Assembly (NCBI GenBank): GCA_019873655.1 | Contig: JAIOAU010000005.1 | Coordinates: 1-64,000, forward strand | Length of the DNA stretch: 64,000 bases | Direction of reading: 5' to 3' | From: Chloroflexota bacterium | GTDB lineage: Bacteria > Chloroflexota > Anaerolineae > Anaerolineales > Villigracilaceae | Shown here: one piece after another, positions 37,591 through 56,158 of the stretch | Numbering within the stretch: position 1 is the first letter of the stretch | Layout of the letters: every line of letters starts with the position of its first letter | Translations under genes and position numbers: made by a program | The notes under the pieces: model-generated | Databases searched by the model: none | The model's input: the letters and a program-made list of their open reading frames with translations, nothing else | What the model was told of the DNA's origin: nothing

Positions 37591-38004
37591 TCATCCTTCG
37601 TCTCCCAGCCGCCTGACCCAGGAAAATCGACCTGCCGCGGTGTGGTACAGGCGCTCGTCTGCCGTGACCAGCGGATCGCCCGTCCGCTGCGCCAGGGCAA
37701 GATAGGCGGCGTCGTAGGCGCTGCAATTCGCCTGGCGGGCAAGGGGCAGAATTTCTTCCCAGTCCAGCGGCAACAGTTCCAGTTCGAGTTTCTTCAGCGC
37801 CGCAAGGATTTGTTCAACCTGGACTTCCGAAACCCGGCCGCGCCGCTCGGCGCGCCAAAGGGCGTGATTCACTTCGTACAGGAGCAGGTCCGGCGCCCGC
37901 AAACGTTCCTGACCGGCCACATGCCGGCGCAGAAGCGCCTGCGCCTGCGGCTGCGCTTCATCCGGGAAGACGGCGCTGAGCAGGACGCTGGCATCCACAA
38001 TCAT
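37591..38004 (-). CDS. vapC: PIN-domain toxin (VapC family) inside the nuo operon
   Basis: The 137-residue protein has PIN acidic positions in [13 protein letters not shown] (Asp4), [14 protein letters not shown] (Glu), [12 protein letters not shown] (Asp) and [10 protein letters not shown] (Asp). It should be an RNase neutralised by the upstream antitoxin. Its ATG overlaps the antitoxin stop as ATGA. It lies 40 bp upstream of nuoK and reads in the same direction, so nuoK-N transcripts may pass through it. Confidence 0.85.
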
Positions 38005-38255
38005 GCGCGGCCCTCCAGGTCTTCGCGTGCTGTGCGATAGAGTTCGGCGGCGGTCAGGCCGCTCTCGCGCAGAGTGTGCGAGAGGTCGACCAGCGTGTCA
38101 TAGGCCTCGTAGCGCTTCAGCCGCTCGTACTCTTCGGGCGAGATCAAGACGCCAACCGCCTTGCCGCGCCGAGTCAGCACGATGGGGGTCTGCGCGACCT
38201 TTTTGAGCAAGGACGAAAGGCGATTGTGCGCTTCTGCGATTGGAAGATGTAACAT
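38001..38255 (-). CDS. Phd/YefM-type antitoxin
   Basis: The 84-residue protein starts MLHLPIAEAHNRLSSLLKKV, followed by PIVLTRRGKAVGVLISPEEYERL, the diagnostic Phd/YefM pattern (DNA-binding N-terminal fold and toxin-binding tail). The ATG at 38255 was chosen because TTGGAGATAG precedes it. It is placed between nuoJ and the VapC toxin; its promoter is in the nuoJ-antitoxin junction. Confidence 0.85.
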   Translation of the reverse strand: MLHLPIAEAHNRLSSLLKKVAQTPIVLTRRGKAVGVLISPEEYERLKRYEAYDTLVDLSHTLRESGLTAAELYRTAREDLEGRA

Positions 38256-38270
38256 TTCTATCTCCAAAGT

Positions 38271-39448: not shown

Positions 39449-40580
39449 ATTCTTTCCTCCTCAACGTCTGATACATCCCCAGGATAGCGATAAAACCTGC
39501 CGCCAGCGAGGCCAGGGGAATGCCCCACTGGTACAGGGGGTTGACCTGCTCGGCCAGCAGCATGCCGATGGAGGTCAGGAAGACGAGCGCCAGCGAGAGC
39601 GGCAGGAGAATCTTCCAGCCGAAGGCCATCAGCCGGTCGTAGCGGATGCGCGGCCAGGTGGCGCGCACCCAAATCATGCCGAAGAGCAGGATGAAGACCT
39701 TGATAAAGACGTACAGCGGCCCCAGCCAGGGGGTCTGGTCCACGCCCAGGACGGTGTCGCGCAGGAACCAGGGTTCGCGGTAGCCGCCCAGGAAGAGCGA
39801 GGCGGCGATGGTGCAGATGGCAATCATCTTGTCGTACTCGGCCATGAACAGCAGGGCGAACTTCATCCCGCCGTACTCGGAGTGATAACCGGCGGCCAGT
39901 TCCTGCTCGGCTTCGGGCATGTCGAACGGGGCGCGGTTGACCTCCGCCAGGGTCGCAATCAGGAAGATGACGAAACCAACCGGCTGGAGGACGGCGAACC
40001 ACATGCCCTTCTGCGCTTCGACGATGTCGAGCAGGCGGGTCGAATTGGCCAGCACGATGACGGCGATGAACGACAGGCCGAGCGCCAGTTCGTAGGAGAG
40101 CATCTGCGCCGTGGAGCGCAGGCCGCCCAGCGTGGCATACTTGTTATTGGATGACCAGCCCGCCAGCACGATGCCGTACACCGCAATCGAGGCAATGGAC
40201 ATGATGTACAACACACCCACGTTCAGGTCGGCGATGTACCAGGTGATGGTGCGCCCGAACAACTGGAAACTGGCCGACTCAGGCCCGAACGGGACGACCG
40301 CCGTGATGACCAGCGCCGGGGTCAGCGTGATGATGGGGGCCAGGGTGAAGAGCAGTTTGTCGGCGCGGGCCGGCATGAACTCCTCTTTGAAAATCAACTT
40401 GATGGCGTCGGCAATCGGCTGGAGCAGACCCCACGGACCGGCGCGGTTCGGACCGACGCGCACCTGGATGCGCGCCAGCGCCCGGCGCTCGTAGTAGGTC
40501 AGGTAGGCGAATCCACCCAGCAGAATCAGCACCCAGACAAGACCTTTGACCAACCATTCAATCACATTCGCAAGCGTCAT
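39435..40580 (-). CDS. nuoH: NADH-quinone oxidoreductase subunit H
   Basis: The 381-residue protein has eight or so TM helices. The quinone-site motifs are YYERRALARIQVRVGPNRAGPWGLLQ, LRSTAQMLSYELALG and AEVNRAPFDMPEAEQELAAGY. It links the soluble arm to the membrane arm. Upstream in-frame residues to 40706 are not homologous, so the ATG at 40580 was chosen. It overlaps the nuoG stop by 4 bp (ATGA). Confidence 0.95.
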   Translation of the reverse strand: MTLANVIEWLVKGLVWVLILLGGFAYLTYYERRALARIQVRVGPNRAGPWGLLQPIADAIKLIFKEEFMPARADKLLFTLAPIITLTPALVITAVVPFGPESASFQLFGRTITWYIADLNVGVLYIMSIASIAVYGIVLAGWSSNNKYATLGGLRSTAQMLSYELALGLSFIAVIVLANSTRLLDIVEAQKGMWFAVLQPVGFVIFLIATLAEVNRAPFDMPEAEQELAAGYHSEYGGMKFALLFMAEYDKMIAICTIAASLFLGGYREPWFLRDTVLGVDQTPWLGPLYVFIKVFILLFGMIWVRATWPRIRYDRLMAFGWKILLPLSLALVFLTSIGMLLAEQVNPLYQWGIPLASLAAGFIAILGMYQTLRRKEYARA

Positions 40581-42691
40581 AAAGCCCTTCCTCTGACAAC
40601 GTTTGAACGTTTGAACGTCGAAACGTTGAGTTGTACGCCCAGGCCCTGGCGGTTTTCGTAGGTCGTGCCGCCGTAGTACAGGTCGCCGCGCCCGACGATG
40701 GGCCACTGCTCGGTCACTTCGGCCAGTTTGCGGTAGGAAATCCCCACGAAGGCCGGGACGGCGGCCGCGAGTTTGTCCATCACCAGCAGGGCGGAGCGGC
40801 CCTCGACCTCGAGGCCGGCCGCGGCAGCGACGGCCGCGGCGATGGCGAAGTCGGCGCGGGACTCGCCCAGCGGCGGCGTGGCCGGGTAGAAGCGCTGGAC
40901 GCGCCGCTCGCCGGACGTGTACGAGCCATCGCGCTCGGTGAAGGCCTGCGCCGGGAAGACCACATCCGCCAGGCTGGCCGTCTTGGTCGGGAAGAGTTCC
41001 TGGACGATGACGGCTTTGGCGCCCTTGAGCGCCTCGGCCAGTTGCGGGTCGTCGCCGGCCGGGTCGGCGGCGGCGAGATAGACCACCTTGCCCTTGACCG
41101 CCTGCGCCAGAGCCTGCCCTGAGCCTGTCGAAGGGTCAACGGGCTTGTAGCCCAGTTCCCACGCGCCCTGGTCGTTGGCGCGCGGCCAGACGCCGATGAG
41201 ACCGTTGTTGGCGCGGCCTTCGCGTCCCTGGAGCAGGGCGGCGCAGTCCTCGGCCAGATTGCGGTCCGCGGTGCGCCCGAAGAAGACGACCAGATTCTCG
41301 GCGGCGGTCAGTTCGGCGGCCAGTTCCCTGACCTTCGCGGCCGCTTCGTCCTTTCCACAGCGGACGAGTTTCTTCGCGTATTTATCGAGGCGGGTCGCCT
41401 CGGGGTTGACAATGACCAGGTTCGCCCCGCGCTCGGCGGCGGCCTTGACGCGCAGATACCAGATGGGAGCCTCGTGATACAGGTCGGCGGCGGCGACGAG
41501 AATGGCCGAACCGGCCCCCAGGTCGCCGAGGTTCGTCCCGGCCGAGACGCCGTAGCGGGTGGTCAGTTCGCCGCCGGGGAGCGAGTCATAGAGCAGGGCC
41601 TCCCCGCCCAGCCCGTCGGCGAGTTGTTTGAGATTGAACAAATCTTCGTTGGAAAGGCGGCCGGAAGCAACGACCAGCACCTGATTCCCTTTTACCTGAT
41701 TGCCTGCCGCTTCGATGGCGGCGCTCCACGACGCCTTCTCCAGCTTGCCATCCTTCTTCACCAGCGGGTGAGTCAGGCGGGACGGGTCTTCGACGTAGTG
41801 CCAGTTGAAGCGGCCGCGGTCGCAAATCCAGATTTCATTGACCTGCTCGTTCTGGCGCGGCATGGCGCGCTTGATGACCACCTTGCCGCCTGCTTTGGCC
41901 TCGCGGCGGGTGTTGAAGGTCAGGTTGCAGCCCACCGGGCAGAGCGAGCAGATGGAGGCCGCCGCTTTCATCTCCCACGGGCGCGCCCCAAAGCGGAAGT
42001 CCGCCGTGGTCAGCGCGCCGACCGGGCAGATGTCGGTGGTGTTGCCGGAGAAAATCGAGTCGAAGGGCGGGTCGGAGTGGGTGATGATGTCGGTGTCGCG
42101 GCCGCGCTGGTAGAACGACAGGACCGGGTCGCCGGCGATGATTTCCTGGAAACGGATGCAGCGTCCGCACTGGATGCAGCGCTCGCGGTCGAGCCAGATT
42201 TTGTCGCCCAGCGGGACGTGCTTCTCGGCGTGATGCTTCTCGCTGTAGAGGAAGCGGCTCTCGGCCGGACCGTAGGCCAGCGTCAGGTTCTGGAGCGGAC
42301 ATTCGCCGCCCTTGTCGCAGACCGGACAGTCGAGCGGGTGCGAGGTCAGCAGGAACTCGAGGATTTCCTTCTGCGCGGCGCGCGCCTTCTCCGAGTGGGT
42401 CAGGACGACCATCCCCTCCGAGACGGGCGTGGTGCAGGCAGTTTCGAGTTTCGGCCCGAACTGAATCTTGGGTTTGCCGTCCTCGAGCACCGGCTGACCG
42501 GTGGCGCGGTCAATGGCCGGGCGGCCGACCTCGACGAGGCACTGGCGGCACATGCCGACCGGTTCCATCTTCGGGTGGTAGCAGAAGACCGGGATGTCAA
42601 TGCCGACCATTTTGGCGGCGTTGACGATGAGCGTGCCTTCTGGCACAGTCACTTGCTGGTCGTCAATGGTAAGCGTTACGGTTTTTGTCAT
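40577..42691 (-). CDS. nuoG: NADH-quinone oxidoreductase subunit G (iron-sulfur)
   Basis: The 704-residue protein has the N-terminal 2Fe-2S ferredoxin domain (FCYHPKMEPVGMCRQCLVEV), the His-ligated cluster segment HPLDCPVCDKGGECPLQN, 4Fe-4S motifs around CIQCGRCIRFQE and CSLCPVGCNL, then a molybdopterin-oxidoreductase-like domain without visible active-site use. It carries electrons from NuoF toward NuoI. Two low-complexity features interrupt it: VDPSTGSGQALAQ from a short repeated element, and a C-terminal NVSTFKRSNVVRGRAL tail made from a word repeat (ACGTTTGAACG). It starts 22 bp after hicA. Confidence 0.93.
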   Translation of the reverse strand: MTKTVTLTIDDQQVTVPEGTLIVNAAKMVGIDIPVFCYHPKMEPVGMCRQCLVEVGRPAIDRATGQPVLEDGKPKIQFGPKLETACTTPVSEGMVVLTHSEKARAAQKEILEFLLTSHPLDCPVCDKGGECPLQNLTLAYGPAESRFLYSEKHHAEKHVPLGDKIWLDRERCIQCGRCIRFQEIIAGDPVLSFYQRGRDTDIITHSDPPFDSIFSGNTTDICPVGALTTADFRFGARPWEMKAAASICSLCPVGCNLTFNTRREAKAGGKVVIKRAMPRQNEQVNEIWICDRGRFNWHYVEDPSRLTHPLVKKDGKLEKASWSAAIEAAGNQVKGNQVLVVASGRLSNEDLFNLKQLADGLGGEALLYDSLPGGELTTRYGVSAGTNLGDLGAGSAILVAAADLYHEAPIWYLRVKAAAERGANLVIVNPEATRLDKYAKKLVRCGKDEAAAKVRELAAELTAAENLVVFFGRTADRNLAEDCAALLQGREGRANNGLIGVWPRANDQGAWELGYKPVDPSTGSGQALAQAVKGKVVYLAAADPAGDDPQLAEALKGAKAVIVQELFPTKTASLADVVFPAQAFTERDGSYTSGERRVQRFYPATPPLGESRADFAIAAAVAAAAGLEVEGRSALLVMDKLAAAVPAFVGISYRKLAEVTEQWPIVGRGDLYYGGTTYENRQGLGVQLNVSTFKRSNVVRGRAL
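41117..41137. repeat. CCCTGAGCC-type short element inside nuoG
   Basis: The word CCCTGAGCCTGTCGAAGGG plus two bases encodes in frame the linker DPSTGSGQ. It is the sister of the copy in nuoN (32367-32387), differing at two positions. Confidence 0.75.
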
Positions 42692-42713
42692 TCAGTCTCT
42701 CCGATGAGAGGGT

Positions 42714-42932
42714 TCAATCGGTAATTTCGTCTCGTTGAATGCCAGCCTGTCTCAAGATTTCCAACAACGTGCCTTGGGGCAAATCCTTATGATGAAACGG
42801 CACGGTGACTCTGGCTTTCGTTTCCGGATGGTAATAAATACGATGGCTGCCTTTGGCCCGGTCGAGTACAAAACCACGCTTTTCTAAAATCTTGATGATT
42901 TTCTGCGGCGTGAGGGCAGGCAGTTTAGGCAT
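42714..42932 (-). CDS. hicA: HicA-type toxin
   Basis: The 72-residue protein has the HicA/YcfA double-stranded-RNA-binding-like fold signature: LTPQKIIKILEKRGFVLDRAKGSHRIYYHP with the catalytic His in KGSHRIY, then VTVPFHHKDLPQGTLLEILRQAG. It should be an mRNA interferase held by HicB. It overlaps hicB by 8 bp and lies 22 bp upstream of nuoG in the same direction. Confidence 0.88.
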   Translation of the reverse strand: MPKLPALTPQKIIKILEKRGFVLDRAKGSHRIYYHPETKARVTVPFHHKDLPQGTLLEILRQAGIQRDEITD

Positions 42933-43155
42933 ACGCGCCCAGCGTCAGCGTATATTCAAAGACATCTTCTTCGGTCGGGACAGGCTCGCCATGCGCCTTG
43001 AGGCTTTCCAGGTAAAGTTCGATGGCTTCCCTGACCATGGCCTTCGCTTCTTCGAGTGTCTTTCCATAAGATACACAACCCGGCAAGGACGGCACAATCG
43101 CCGTAAAGCCGCCTTCCGGCTCTTTGCGGAACAGCACGCGGTAGGTCACGTTCAT
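42925..43155 (-). CDS. hicB: HicB-type antitoxin
   Basis: The 76-residue protein has the degenerate RNase H-like HicB fold: VLFRKEPEGGFTAIVPSLPGCVSYGKTLEEAKAMVREAIELYLESL. It is short and shows no separate C-terminal DNA-binding domain, so autoregulation by itself is uncertain. The order is hicB then hicA. The SD AAGGAG precedes ATG at 43155; only 31 bp separate it from nuoF, and no clear promoter lies there, so it is probably co-transcribed with nuo. Confidence 0.85.
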   Translation of the reverse strand: MNVTYRVLFRKEPEGGFTAIVPSLPGCVSYGKTLEEAKAMVREAIELYLESLKAHGEPVPTEEDVFEYTLTLGAYA

Positions 43156-43186
43156 GGCAATCTCCTTACTCCAAAGAGCAGAACTC

Positions 43187-44425
43187 TCAACCGCGAAAAT
43201 CCTGCGGGAAGCGCTCGATGGCGGTGGTGACGGCCATCGTGGAAAACTCGCCCAGCGGGCAGAGACACTTGTTCTGCATCTGTTTGGCGACGGTGTGCAG
43301 GAGTTGGGTGTTGGCCTCCACCTCCTCGCCGCGCTCGATGCGTTCGATGAGATGCAGCATCCAGTACGTGCCGTCGCGGCAGGGGGTGCATTTGCCGCAG
43401 GACTCGTGCTTGAAGAAGTGGATGGTCTTGTTGATGACCCAGTCCATCGAGACGCTGTCGTTGATGACGATGACGGAGGCCGACCCGAGGTCCGCGCCGA
43501 GCGCCTTGACCGAGGCGTAATCCATCGGCGTGTCGAGGGCTTTGTCGTCGGCGACGATGACCGCCGAGGACGCGCCCGCCGCCATAATCGCCTTGACCGG
43601 CCGGTCGTCCAGCACGCCGCCGCCGTACTCGTAGATGAGTTGGCGGAAGGTCGTCCCGAAGGGCAGTTCGTAGTTGCCCGGCTTCTTGACGTGGCCGGAG
43701 AGCGAGAAAATCTTGACCCCGGCGCTGTCGGCCGTGCCGAGCGACTTGTACCAGTCCGCCCCTTTCTCGACGATGAGCGGCACGTTGGTCAGCGTCTCGA
43801 CGTTGTTGACCACGGTCGGCTTGCCGTAGAGGCCGTAGACGGCCGGAAACGGCGGGCGGATGCGCGGCTGGCCGCGCTTGCCCTCGATGGATTCGAGCAG
43901 GGCGGTCTCCTCGCCGCAGATGTACGCGCCCGCGCCGAGGTGGGTGTAGATGCGCAGGGAGTAGTCTGTACCAAAGAGTTTGTCGCCCAGCAGAGCGGCT
44001 TTTTCCATCTCGGCGATTTTCTCGTCCAGGTGGGCGGCCACCGGCCAGAACTCGCCGCGCAGGTAGATGTAAGCCGCGTTCGCGCCGACCGCGTAGGCGG
44101 CGATGGCGACGCCCTCCAAAAACTGGAAAGGATTGCTCTCCATGATTTCGCGGTCTTTGAACGTGCCGGGTTCGGACTCGTCGGCGTTGGCGACGACGTA
44201 GTGCGGCCAGATATTGTTCGGGACGAAACTCCACTTGACGCCGGTCGGGAAGCCCGCCCCGCCGCGGCCGCGCAGACCGGAAGCCTTGACCACCTCAATC
44301 ACTTCCTGCGGCTTCATCTGCGTGACGGCCTTTTTGAACGCCTCGAAGCCGCCGTTCTTGCGGTAAACGTCCAGTTTGCCGATGTCGGGGATGTCGCGGT
44401 GACGGAGGAGAAGGTGGGCCATCAT
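43187..44425 (-). CDS. nuoF: NADH-quinone oxidoreductase subunit F
   Basis: The 412-residue protein has NADH-binding GRGGAGFPTGVKWSFVP, FMN-site motifs YVVANADESEPGTFKDRE and GAGAYICGEETALLESIEG, and the 4Fe-4S ligands ESCGKCTPCRDGT with the distal Cys in NKCLCPLGEFS. It oxidises NADH. The start overlaps the nuoE stop (ATGA at 44422-44425). Downstream 31 bp lies hicB. Confidence 0.95.
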   Translation of the reverse strand: MMAHLLLRHRDIPDIGKLDVYRKNGGFEAFKKAVTQMKPQEVIEVVKASGLRGRGGAGFPTGVKWSFVPNNIWPHYVVANADESEPGTFKDREIMESNPFQFLEGVAIAAYAVGANAAYIYLRGEFWPVAAHLDEKIAEMEKAALLGDKLFGTDYSLRIYTHLGAGAYICGEETALLESIEGKRGQPRIRPPFPAVYGLYGKPTVVNNVETLTNVPLIVEKGADWYKSLGTADSAGVKIFSLSGHVKKPGNYELPFGTTFRQLIYEYGGGVLDDRPVKAIMAAGASSAVIVADDKALDTPMDYASVKALGADLGSASVIVINDSVSMDWVINKTIHFFKHESCGKCTPCRDGTYWMLHLIERIERGEEVEANTQLLHTVAKQMQNKCLCPLGEFSTMAVTTAIERFPQDFRG

Positions 44426-54656: not shown

Positions 54657-55520
54657 TTATACCTGTTTTTCGAGGCCGCTGTCGGAGAGATAGAACTTTG
54701 CGAATTCGGTAAAGTTGACGTGGAAGCCTTCCAGCCAGGATTCGATGAAGGGGCGCGACTCGAACATCGGCAGCAAGTCCACTGCCAGATCGGCCGGACG
54801 GATTGCGGACACTTTTTCCTGCAACGCCTCCATGGCCGTTCGAACCGTGTAGGGTCTTTCGCCGTCTCTGGCAAGTTTTTCTTCCAGCGGCCAGACGCGC
54901 TTCTGCATGAACCACAGCAGGTCATAGAAATCGCGGCCTTTGAGCAGCGCCCCATCGCGCCCGCGCTGGAAGTTGCGCTCCAGGCAGGCCAGCATCTTCC
55001 CGGCCATCATCGTCTCCAGCGAGAAATGCGCCGGGACGAAACTCAAGCCGTGAAAGAAAACCGGCGTCTTTGCAATGACGGCGGTCTGCGGGTGGGTGCT
55101 GATCTCGATTTTCAGGTGCAAGGCTTCGCTGGGGTGGTCGGCCAGACCCAGGGCGTTCAACAGCGGAAGTTTCAGCGTGAAGCGCAGGATGCCGCTTTCG
55201 CCTTGCTGGGTTTTGACAGCCGCCTCGGGATAGGCCAGACTCTTGTGGAAAAACGCAAGCAAATCATCCGGCAGACGGCTCAAGTCCAGCCCGGCGCTGT
55301 TGTCCAGGTCGAGGTCCTCGGACAGGCGGTTGAGACCATAGACCACGTGCAGGCAGGTGCCGCCGTAGAAATTCAAGCGGCGGTAGAGAGGGTGGTTGTA
55401 GAGAAAATCGAGCAGGCGCGCTTGCAGGGCCTCTTTGAGCAGGATGCGCCGCGTCTCGTTGGCGAGAAGCGGGTCTCTGCTTTCGAGAACATGCCGCAAG
55501 GTCTGAATCAGGGTCGCCAT
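54657..55520 (-). CDS. abiEii: AbiEii-type nucleotidyltransferase toxin
   Basis: The 287-residue protein has the nucleotidyltransferase motif FYGGTCLHVVYGLNRLSEDLDLD (about 50-73), the acidic metal site DLDLD and the further strand LHLKIEIS with Glu/Glu. Conserved KMLACLERNFQRGRDGALLKGRDFYDLLWF follows. This is the AbiEii/AbiGii toxin family, used as an abortive-infection effector that transfers nucleotides to RNA. It overlaps the antitoxin gene by 13 bp. Complete and apparently intact. Confidence 0.88.
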   Translation of the reverse strand: MATLIQTLRHVLESRDPLLANETRRILLKEALQARLLDFLYNHPLYRRLNFYGGTCLHVVYGLNRLSEDLDLDNSAGLDLSRLPDDLLAFFHKSLAYPEAAVKTQQGESGILRFTLKLPLLNALGLADHPSEALHLKIEISTHPQTAVIAKTPVFFHGLSFVPAHFSLETMMAGKMLACLERNFQRGRDGALLKGRDFYDLLWFMQKRVWPLEEKLARDGERPYTVRTAMEALQEKVSAIRPADLAVDLLPMFESRPFIESWLEGFHVNFTEFAKFYLSDSGLEKQV

Positions 55521-56158
55521 ATATGCCTCCGCAGGTTTTCATAGATGCGCGTCATTTTGGGACTGGCAGCGCGTTCGACCAGCCGTCGGAATTCGTCCCG
55601 CTCTTCCGCCGGGACCTCGTCCAGGTTCAGGCGCAACTCCTCGGCGAGGTCGAAGTCGAGGCGGCGGACGGCCGCTCCCAGCGGACGCAGGTAGAAATAG
55701 TCGAACAGCGCTTTGGCCGGCGAGGCCTCGGCGTAGCGGATGCCGTAATATTCCAGAATCGTAAAACCGCAGTAGAGGTCCGGGCGCAGGTGACGATACC
55801 AGAAAGTCCCCAGGGGGTTGACCACCCGGCGCGTGTTCTTGAGCGTGACGGCGGTGAGCGGATAGGTAGCCTCGGTCAACAGGTTGTGGCGCTGTAAGAT
55901 GAACTCCAGCGAGACATAAGACTGCGGCAGGAGGATGGCGCTGACGGCGGGCATGAAAGCGGCGTCGGCGCGGCGACGTTCGTAGAAGCGGCGCGTCATG
56001 TAGACGCCCTTCTTGAGCGGCAGGATATGTCCGGCGGCCGCCCAGCGGTGGAGCAGCAGACGCGCCTGCGCCGGGCTGTCCATGCCGGCGGCCTGACGGA
56101 AGCCCTCGATGGTGAAGTAGGGGATGGACTCAAAGGCGGCGAGAAGATTCGTTTTCAT
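55508..56158 (-). CDS. abiEi: AbiEi-type antitoxin/transcriptional regulator
   Basis: The 216-residue protein has an N-terminal winged-helix (FTIEGFRQAAGMDSPAQARLLLHRWAAAGHILPLKKGVYMTRRF) and a C-terminal antitoxin domain (VSLEFILQRHNLL, IRYAEASPAKALFDYFYLRP). AbiEi proteins repress their own promoter through inverted repeats and neutralise AbiEii. No SD precedes the ATG at 56158; the start codon is part of the operator. Confidence 0.88.
   Translation of the reverse strand: MKTNLLAAFESIPYFTIEGFRQAAGMDSPAQARLLLHRWAAAGHILPLKKGVYMTRRFYERRRADAAFMPAVSAILLPQSYVSLEFILQRHNLLTEATYPLTAVTLKNTRRVVNPLGTFWYRHLRPDLYCGFTILEYYGIRYAEASPAKALFDYFYLRPLGAAVRRLDFDLAEELRLNLDEVPAEERDEFRRLVERAASPKMTRIYENLRRHIWRP

Follow-up and report, generated by a model that had tools for sequence, protein, structure and literature searches.

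mazEF, a toxin–antitoxin (TA) module, adjoins relA. TA modules inserted within operons have already been noted in the available parts of PMC6504116, whose reference 7 is the 1996 mazEF paper. Closest in build to the locus described here is class 2 of the hicBA modules in Gerdes (2024; PMC10865869, accessible sections), in which hicB precedes hicA and HicB, of 63–103 codons, has no recognizable DNA-binding domain. The same sections describe such small hicBA pairs, whose antitoxin does not bind DNA, as the commonest form of bicistronic hicA, and present the transcriptional control of class 2 bicistronic hicBA as an open question.

Here we describe a hicBA pair within the nuo operon of a Chloroflexota bacterium (Anaerolineae, Villigracilaceae), located in a stretch of 64,000 nucleotides that was analysed as a whole (contig JAIOAU010000005.1, positions 1 to 64,000; hereafter the window). 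The pair itself belongs to a known class; the nuo-operon setting is what is new. A literature search on TA modules in connection with complex I, the nuo/NADH dehydrogenase operon, conserved operons, HicB and Anaerolineae found no such report among the papers listed, subscription papers lying mostly outside its scope.

Results

An ordinary small hicBA pair between nuoF and nuoG

The nuo operon occupies the minus strand of the window, its 14 genes running from nuoA (47655) to nuoN (31977). Coordinates and Pfam matches agree with the original prediction that a hicBA pair lies between nuoF and nuoG in the direction of the operon, set off from its neighbours by spacers of 31 bp (nuoF–hicB) and 22 bp (hicA–nuoG) (Table 1). 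The two hic reading frames overlap by 8 nt, and both proteins exceed the Pfam curated cut-off, which is 27 bits for HicA_toxin and HicB_lk_antitox alike. Compared with most of the relatives examined, the window nuoF has a shorter tail.

Table 1. Features of the hicBA and Phd/PIN insertions in the window and their neighbours
Feature	Coordinates	Strand	Details
PIN toxin gene, nuoJ–nuoK	37591..38004	-	PF01850, 54 bits; same joint in G061, 84%
Phd/YefM antitoxin gene, nuoJ–nuoK	38001..38267	-	PF02604, 53.3 bits; same joint in G061, 87%
nuoG, downstream neighbour of hicA	40577..42691	-	Molybdopterin, Fer4_Nqo3, Fer2_4 and NADH-G_4Fe-4S_3 matches
hicA–nuoG spacer, 22 bp	42692..42713	-	CTCTC/GAGAG hairpin across the nuoG ribosome-binding region
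hicA toxin gene	42714..42932	-	72 aa, ATG start; PF07927 (HicA_toxin), 81.9 bits; GSH histidine is residue 30
hicB antitoxin gene	42925..43155	-	76 aa, ATG start; PF15919 (HicB_lk_antitox), 44.5 bits; UPF0150, 28.9 bits
nuoF, upstream neighbour of hicB	43187..44425	-	Complex1_51K, NADH_4Fe-4S and SLBB matches

HicB has a partial RNase H-type domain, recognized by PF15919 above its cut-off and by HicB chains in the PDB at E values of 0.0009–0.4. The protein stops after this RNase H-like region: no DNA-binding domain was matched in Pfam or NCBIfam, and NCBIfam gave no match at all. HicA has structural relatives in the PDB (1whz, 6g26, 4c26 and 9svk). Its GSH motif is invariant among the six intact nuo-linked copies, and H30 lines up with an alanine in both 6g26 and 4c26, structures that we take to be HicA crystallized as a His-to-Ala mutant. 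The pair thus combines the features of a type II HicAB TA system, namely a HicA domain, a HicB RNase H-type domain and the catalytic histidine, and by its sequence it is an ordinary small hicBA with a predicted TA function. In gene order, HicB length (76 aa) and the lack of a DNA-binding match in Pfam and NCBIfam, it also corresponds to class 2 as set out in the accessible sections of PMC10865869. A second HicA-domain match in the same genome (32.6 bits; cut-off 27) lies inside a 432-aa open frame. An assembly error as the source of the pair is ruled out, because five further genomes have an intact pair at the same joint. At 54657–56158 the window also holds a nucleotidyltransferase gene of AbiEii type (74.2 bits), whose AbiEi-like partner scores 21.3, below the Pfam cut-off of 25; immediately downstream on the same strand, a 1029-aa ORF resembles, by eye, a fused glycyl-tRNA synthetase.

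The original prediction had found no obvious separate promoter for the pair, and our scan of 42500–43700 for sigma-70-like promoters, the one type scanned, was likewise empty, with low power given a mean of 0.5 in shuffled sequences. HicB is unlikely to autorepress, because it has no DNA-binding domain; transcription can be provided by a site within an operon. The hairpin in the hicA–nuoG spacer has a minimum free energy of −6.3 kcal/mol and a z score of −1.2 that is not significant, 27 of 200 shuffles folding as well. As proof of translational coupling to nuoG it was rejected: in addition to the window value, the G024 sequence gives z −2.0 and that of G061 folds otherwise.

Few joints carry hicBA and both genes are under purifying selection

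NuoF matches were found in 146 of 150 family genomes, the window's own included. The survey of the joint comprised the window and 120 of the 145 other NuoF-matching loci, mostly the best-scoring ones, and in these 121 loci 120 nuoF–nuoG joints were measurable. hicBA or its remains occupy 12 of the 120 (window included). Six copies are intact, in the window (g1), G024 (g24) and G086, G119, G113 and G096 (all four g9); six are decayed, in G033 (g12), G121, G124, G115, G114 (g9) and G079 (g3). At 104 joints, merely −8 to 125 bp lie between the genes. The other four contain an N6/N4 DNA methyltransferase gene (G061), a DUF3800 gene (G012) or repeats (G015, G040). The operons closest to that of the window have no hicBA: G061 has its methyltransferase gene there, in G074 and G006 the two genes overlap by 8 bp, and the nuoF–nuoG gap is 106 bp in G026 and 1 bp in G018, a congener of the window. 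By eye, TA-free spacers of about 30–125 bp (for example, in L106, L082 and L135) are often packed with short palindromes, as if repeat elements settle at the joint.

At this frequency, with half of the carriers intact, hicBA is not an accessory part of the nuo operon present in most relatives. Nor does the survey show that the operon is addicted to its TA passengers, as had been suggested, and the persistence of operons without them does not fit such a need: given the 104 short joints and the near-universal presence of NuoF, the operon is not lost where the module is absent, as operon-stabilizing addiction would entail.

The variety of occupants brings in the explanation that hicBA is a neutral passenger, one of several arrivals at a joint that tolerates inserts; the methyltransferase and DUF3800 genes, the repeats, the many palindrome-rich empty spacers and the loss of hicBA in most lineages all speak for it. 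In six pairs within g9, however, dN/dS is 0.02–0.12 for hicB and hicA compared with 0.04–0.09 for nuoF and nuoG, and both hicB and hicA are, by this sequence measure, under purifying selection. Constraint as strong as that on nuoF and nuoG, seen in these close pairs, already weakens the neutral explanation, as do the share of TA families among long nuo inserts and the survival of antitoxin beyond toxin in decayed copies (see below), and we consider it quite improbable.

Within g9, synonymous divergence of hicBA is of the same order as that of its flanks (for G086–G113, dS of 1.08 and 1.33 versus 1.19 and 1.17), and between G113 and G096 it falls below them (0.80 and 0.65 versus 1.16 and 1.23). 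Between the window and G024, the synonymous difference is 0.82 for hicB and 0.76 for hicA versus 0.48 for nuoF and 0.51 for nuoG, synonymous sites being often saturated in pairs deeper than g9, window–G024 hicBA included. Because this difference is greater in hicBA than in nuoF and nuoG, there is no sign of recent transfer between the two lineages.

One clade with scattered carriers

Among 150 family genomes, every full-length hicBA copy of at least 67% identity lies at the nuoF–nuoG joint, and the best unlinked copies have 49%. When 152 family genomes were searched with a profile (E 1e-14), 15 gave matches, nine at the joint and six elsewhere. With no nuo gene in the flanking DNA inspected, the same hicBA subfamily occurs in other Anaerolineae families, Methanomicrobiaceae, Methanoregula and Aminicenantes. 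A wider distribution of the nuo-linked form across the class is unsupported, since none of 27 class loci, inspected for up to 1.5 kb on each side, has a nuo gene beside hicBA.

In a tree of close relatives only, the 11 nuo-linked rows group in a single clade, apart from 16 others (support 96/98), and eight nuo-linked rows do so again when the three shortest relics are removed (96/97, against 16). The clade appeared once nine long rows had been dropped (L202–L206, L208, L213, L217 and L231). It was not recovered in a tree with distant rows, which combined the nuo-linked rows with 25 of the 47 loci L192–L238 (the 22 omitted were nuo-linked duplicates, partial, partnerless or distant) and in which the window copy grouped with long branches; that tree is nevertheless compatible with a constraint that keeps the nuo-linked rows together (p-AU 0.39 with all 11 rows and 0.16 with the six intact ones, neither a rejection). 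The G124 relic was left out of both hicBA trees and of the split tests described below. Distances between hicBA copies follow those between nuo operons (r=0.81, p=0.0006 for eight taxa; r=0.85, exact p=0.0097 for the six intact copies). The carriers nevertheless lie scattered on the nuo tree, where their distribution takes 11 changes against a shuffled-label mean of 11.6 (334 of 1,000 shuffles were as low) and thus clusters no better than chance. A single gain of hicBA would require 42 losses (FastTree, midpoint-rooted nuo tree).

Such scatter would also follow if hicBA had come to the nuoF–nuoG joint more than once through homologous recombination, with the nuo flanks as homology arms and with TA-bearing alleles resisting replacement because loss frees the toxin. 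The reduced hicBA dS between G113 and G096 points in this direction, as does the outcome for two splits that the nuo tree predicts (G096 with G115; the window with G033, tested from both sides), which cost about 6 log-likelihood units in the hicBA tree and are disfavoured, not rejected, at p-AU 0.08. Two further nuo-tree groups are not disfavoured (p-AU 0.28 and 0.32). Recombination is countered by the agreement of hicBA with nuo distances, by the saturation of synonymous sites between the window and G024 copies, and by the course of identity beside the window insert: neither nuoF nor nuoG shows a local rise towards a G024-like donor, and recent import of the joint from such a donor was rejected on this ground. 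Taken together, we hold repeated arrival to be somewhat unlikely.

A fresh insertion in the window lineage is not favoured either, given selection and the single clade, though the nearest operons are empty at this joint or, in G061, hold another gene; from the sequences compared, hicBA at nuoF–nuoG is probably not a recent arrival. Because the copies form one clade and co-diverge with nuo, yet their carriers are scattered, hicBA appears to be an old resident of the joint, often lost and perhaps sometimes exchanged between lineages. The original prediction was to be given up if hicBA proved an ancestral, conserved part of the locus with another role. Antiquity and a single origin do fit the copies, but conservation does not (12 of 120 joints, half of them decayed), and nothing indicates another role.

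Other TA families at other nuo joints

The original prediction implied another TA pair in the window operon, and there is one, the unrelated Phd/YefM with PIN at nuoJ–nuoK. Phd/PIN relatives of 66–70% in G074, G006, G018 and G026 sit on contigs other than those of nuoF, and for this reason the pair looks younger in nuo. A Phd copy of 94% occurs in the congener G038.

Two insertions in one operon had been called unusual; within the family, this view did not hold. The survey of nuo operons for TA pairs that had been proposed as a check was run here across the family, and found, apart from hicBA at the same joint in 12 of 120 cases, other TA families at other joints. At least one TA family match falls in a nuo joint in 29 of 121 loci, and 12 loci have two or three modules. 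Among the 1,340 nuo joints measured in the 121 loci, 49 carry inserts of more than 300 bp, and 41 of these contain TA families, which were chosen after the inserts had been seen. Five joints have TA families, mostly one joint for each family: HEPN and/or MNT (MntA/HepT-like) at nuoE–nuoF in 19 of 121 loci (for example, L104:4299–4987); hicBA at nuoF–nuoG in 12 loci; Phd/PIN at nuoJ–nuoK in the window and G061; DUF4258 together with a YgiT-type zinc finger at nuoL–nuoM in six loci (for example, L094:4756–5285), another such pair lying at nuoE–nuoF in G015; and BrnT/BrnA at nuoM–nuoN in three loci (for example, L123:13989–14544), one with BrnA only. All 43 TA modules in nuo joints are co-directional with the operon. 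A TA module at nuoE–nuoF accompanies hicBA at nuoF–nuoG in 6 of 12 loci versus 13 of 108 without hicBA (p=0.004, kinship ignored). Other inserts include a DNA methyltransferase gene (L068:5257–6336), a DUF3800 gene (L168:5735–6463), a nuoC–nuoD insert (L086:2047–2535) encoding a 162-aa protein without clear family that is present too in G040, and a 7.6-kb insert at nuoI–nuoJ of L140.

A search of 152 genomes for MNT (E 1e-20) returned 24 matches, of which 21 adjoin nuoF, one (G040) lies elsewhere and two (G150 and G067) are unplaced. MNT distances show no co-divergence with the nuo tree (r=0.08, p=0.24; 16 of 17 rows), and HEPN/MNT is thus unsupported as a second case of co-divergence. A module that keeps to a single joint in 21 of the 24 genomes with a match, yet does not track the nuo tree, is again what repeated recombination would produce; against this reading, no clear edge was seen around HEPN/MNT in the five pairs inspected, and a non-significant correlation is no proof of transfer. 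A value of r=0.20 for HEPN versus nuo was set aside because an MNT row (L120) had wrongly been included, as had L143 with its variant HEPN. DUF4258 distances versus nuo gave p=0.06 with n=5.

Two control operons were examined in 20 genomes each, 18 in common, picked partly for having nuo inserts. The S10-spc-alpha operon has no insert of more than 300 bp in 535 joints, adk at secY–map discounted (apparent gaps there in 19 loci are the adk gene, its translation read by eye); atpA-G-D-C plus the next gene has one in 80 joints, a RadC-like stretch by eye and not TA. No TA insert was found in either operon across these genomes. Long inserts number 49 in 1,340 nuo joints versus 1 in 615 control joints (p=2e-7, joints of related genomes being non-independent); in the 20 genomes examined for S10-spc-alpha, the figure for nuo is 33 of 253 joints. 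That TA accumulation is special to nuo is suggested by these sequence counts; we word it no more strongly because the joints are non-independent, the controls comprise two operons and ribosomal operons are rigid.

Antitoxins seem to outlast toxins

Three of the six decayed hicBA copies (G115, G114 and G079) retain an open hicB frame of 65–70 aa and have lost hicA; in the other three both genes are damaged, and none of the six has hicA without hicB. At nuoE–nuoF, MNT is present in 17 loci; five of these (L066, L083, L097, L120 and L135) have lost the HEPN partner or have it in heavily damaged form, and in L112 it is shortened. A variant HEPN stands alone in L085 and L153, with changed HNL and RYP-type stretches. 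At nuoM–nuoN, G015 has BrnA without BrnT. Over all nuo TA modules, 9 or 10 are antitoxin-only versus 2 toxin-only (two-sided sign test, 0.065 for 9 of 11 or 0.039 for 10 of 12). With these modest statistics, the antitoxin seems to outlast the toxin, which is the order expected if the toxins are active.

Discussion

The explanation that we favour, with confidence slightly better than even, is that a compact hicBA, its HicB devoid of a DNA-binding domain, lodged once at nuoF–nuoG in an ancestor of this Anaerolineae family, and would since have been inherited chiefly along with the operon, though most lineages lost it. The pair would be read from the nuo transcript, such that synthesis of complex I always brings synthesis of HicB and HicA. 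If HicB is the less stable partner, as we assume, it would require constant resupply by nuo transcription; when this transcription stops, on starvation, phage host shut-off or loss or replacement of the segment, HicA may be freed to cut mRNA and arrest the cell. Judged from sequence, it is more likely that the pair borrows nuo transcription than that the operon is addicted to the pair.

Host shut-off raises a further explanation, in which the pair is kept for abortive infection and the nuo site gives only steady transcription. The available sections of PMC10865869 propose that HicA contexts serve in defence, and host shut-off would indeed stop antitoxin supply; on the other side, neither HicA nor HicB matches a PADLOC model, and no defence genes adjoin hicBA in the operon. 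We regard a purpose in defence as unlikely.

Lodging with borrowed transcription can be extended to the other modules, in a tentative proposal that we place somewhat on the unlikely side. Nuo joints could be safe harbours for TA modules without control of their own, with antitoxin supply reporting transcription of respiration genes, arrest following silence of the operon or host shut-off, and homology arms letting TA-bearing alleles resist or invade TA-free ones. If true, antitoxin supply embedded in nuo would couple cell arrest to the silence of an energy-converting operon. How such modules are transcribed can, for one case, be given a testable answer by an hicBA that has apparently resided in the same housekeeping operon in different genera, namely that the host operon transcribes it. 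The locus is also a natural experiment on the fate of TA modules, with apparently one origin, many losses and a toxin that is never alone, and five TA-bearing joints in one operon raise the question of why TA pairs settle among respiration genes.

In comparison with known systems, the window pair resembles class 2 hicBA, as presented in the accessible sections of Gerdes (2024), in having hicB first, a small HicB without a DNA-binding domain and a compact bicistron; whereas class 2 modules are described as bicistronic operons, it is part of a nuo operon of 14 genes and keeps to one joint in several genera. Members of the subfamily that stand free of nuo have a HicA up to 81% identical to that of the window and a small HicB, but no nuo gene nearby (27 class loci, up to 1.5 kb on each side, and 14 other loci), and 14 of 16 free-standing rows read GSHH where the six intact nuo copies read GSHR. 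Like the operon-inserted modules in the available parts of PMC6504116, the pair sits among non-TA genes with which it is presumably co-transcribed; unlike the cases described in those parts, it is accompanied by further TA families, which sit at different joints of a single respiratory operon across a bacterial family.
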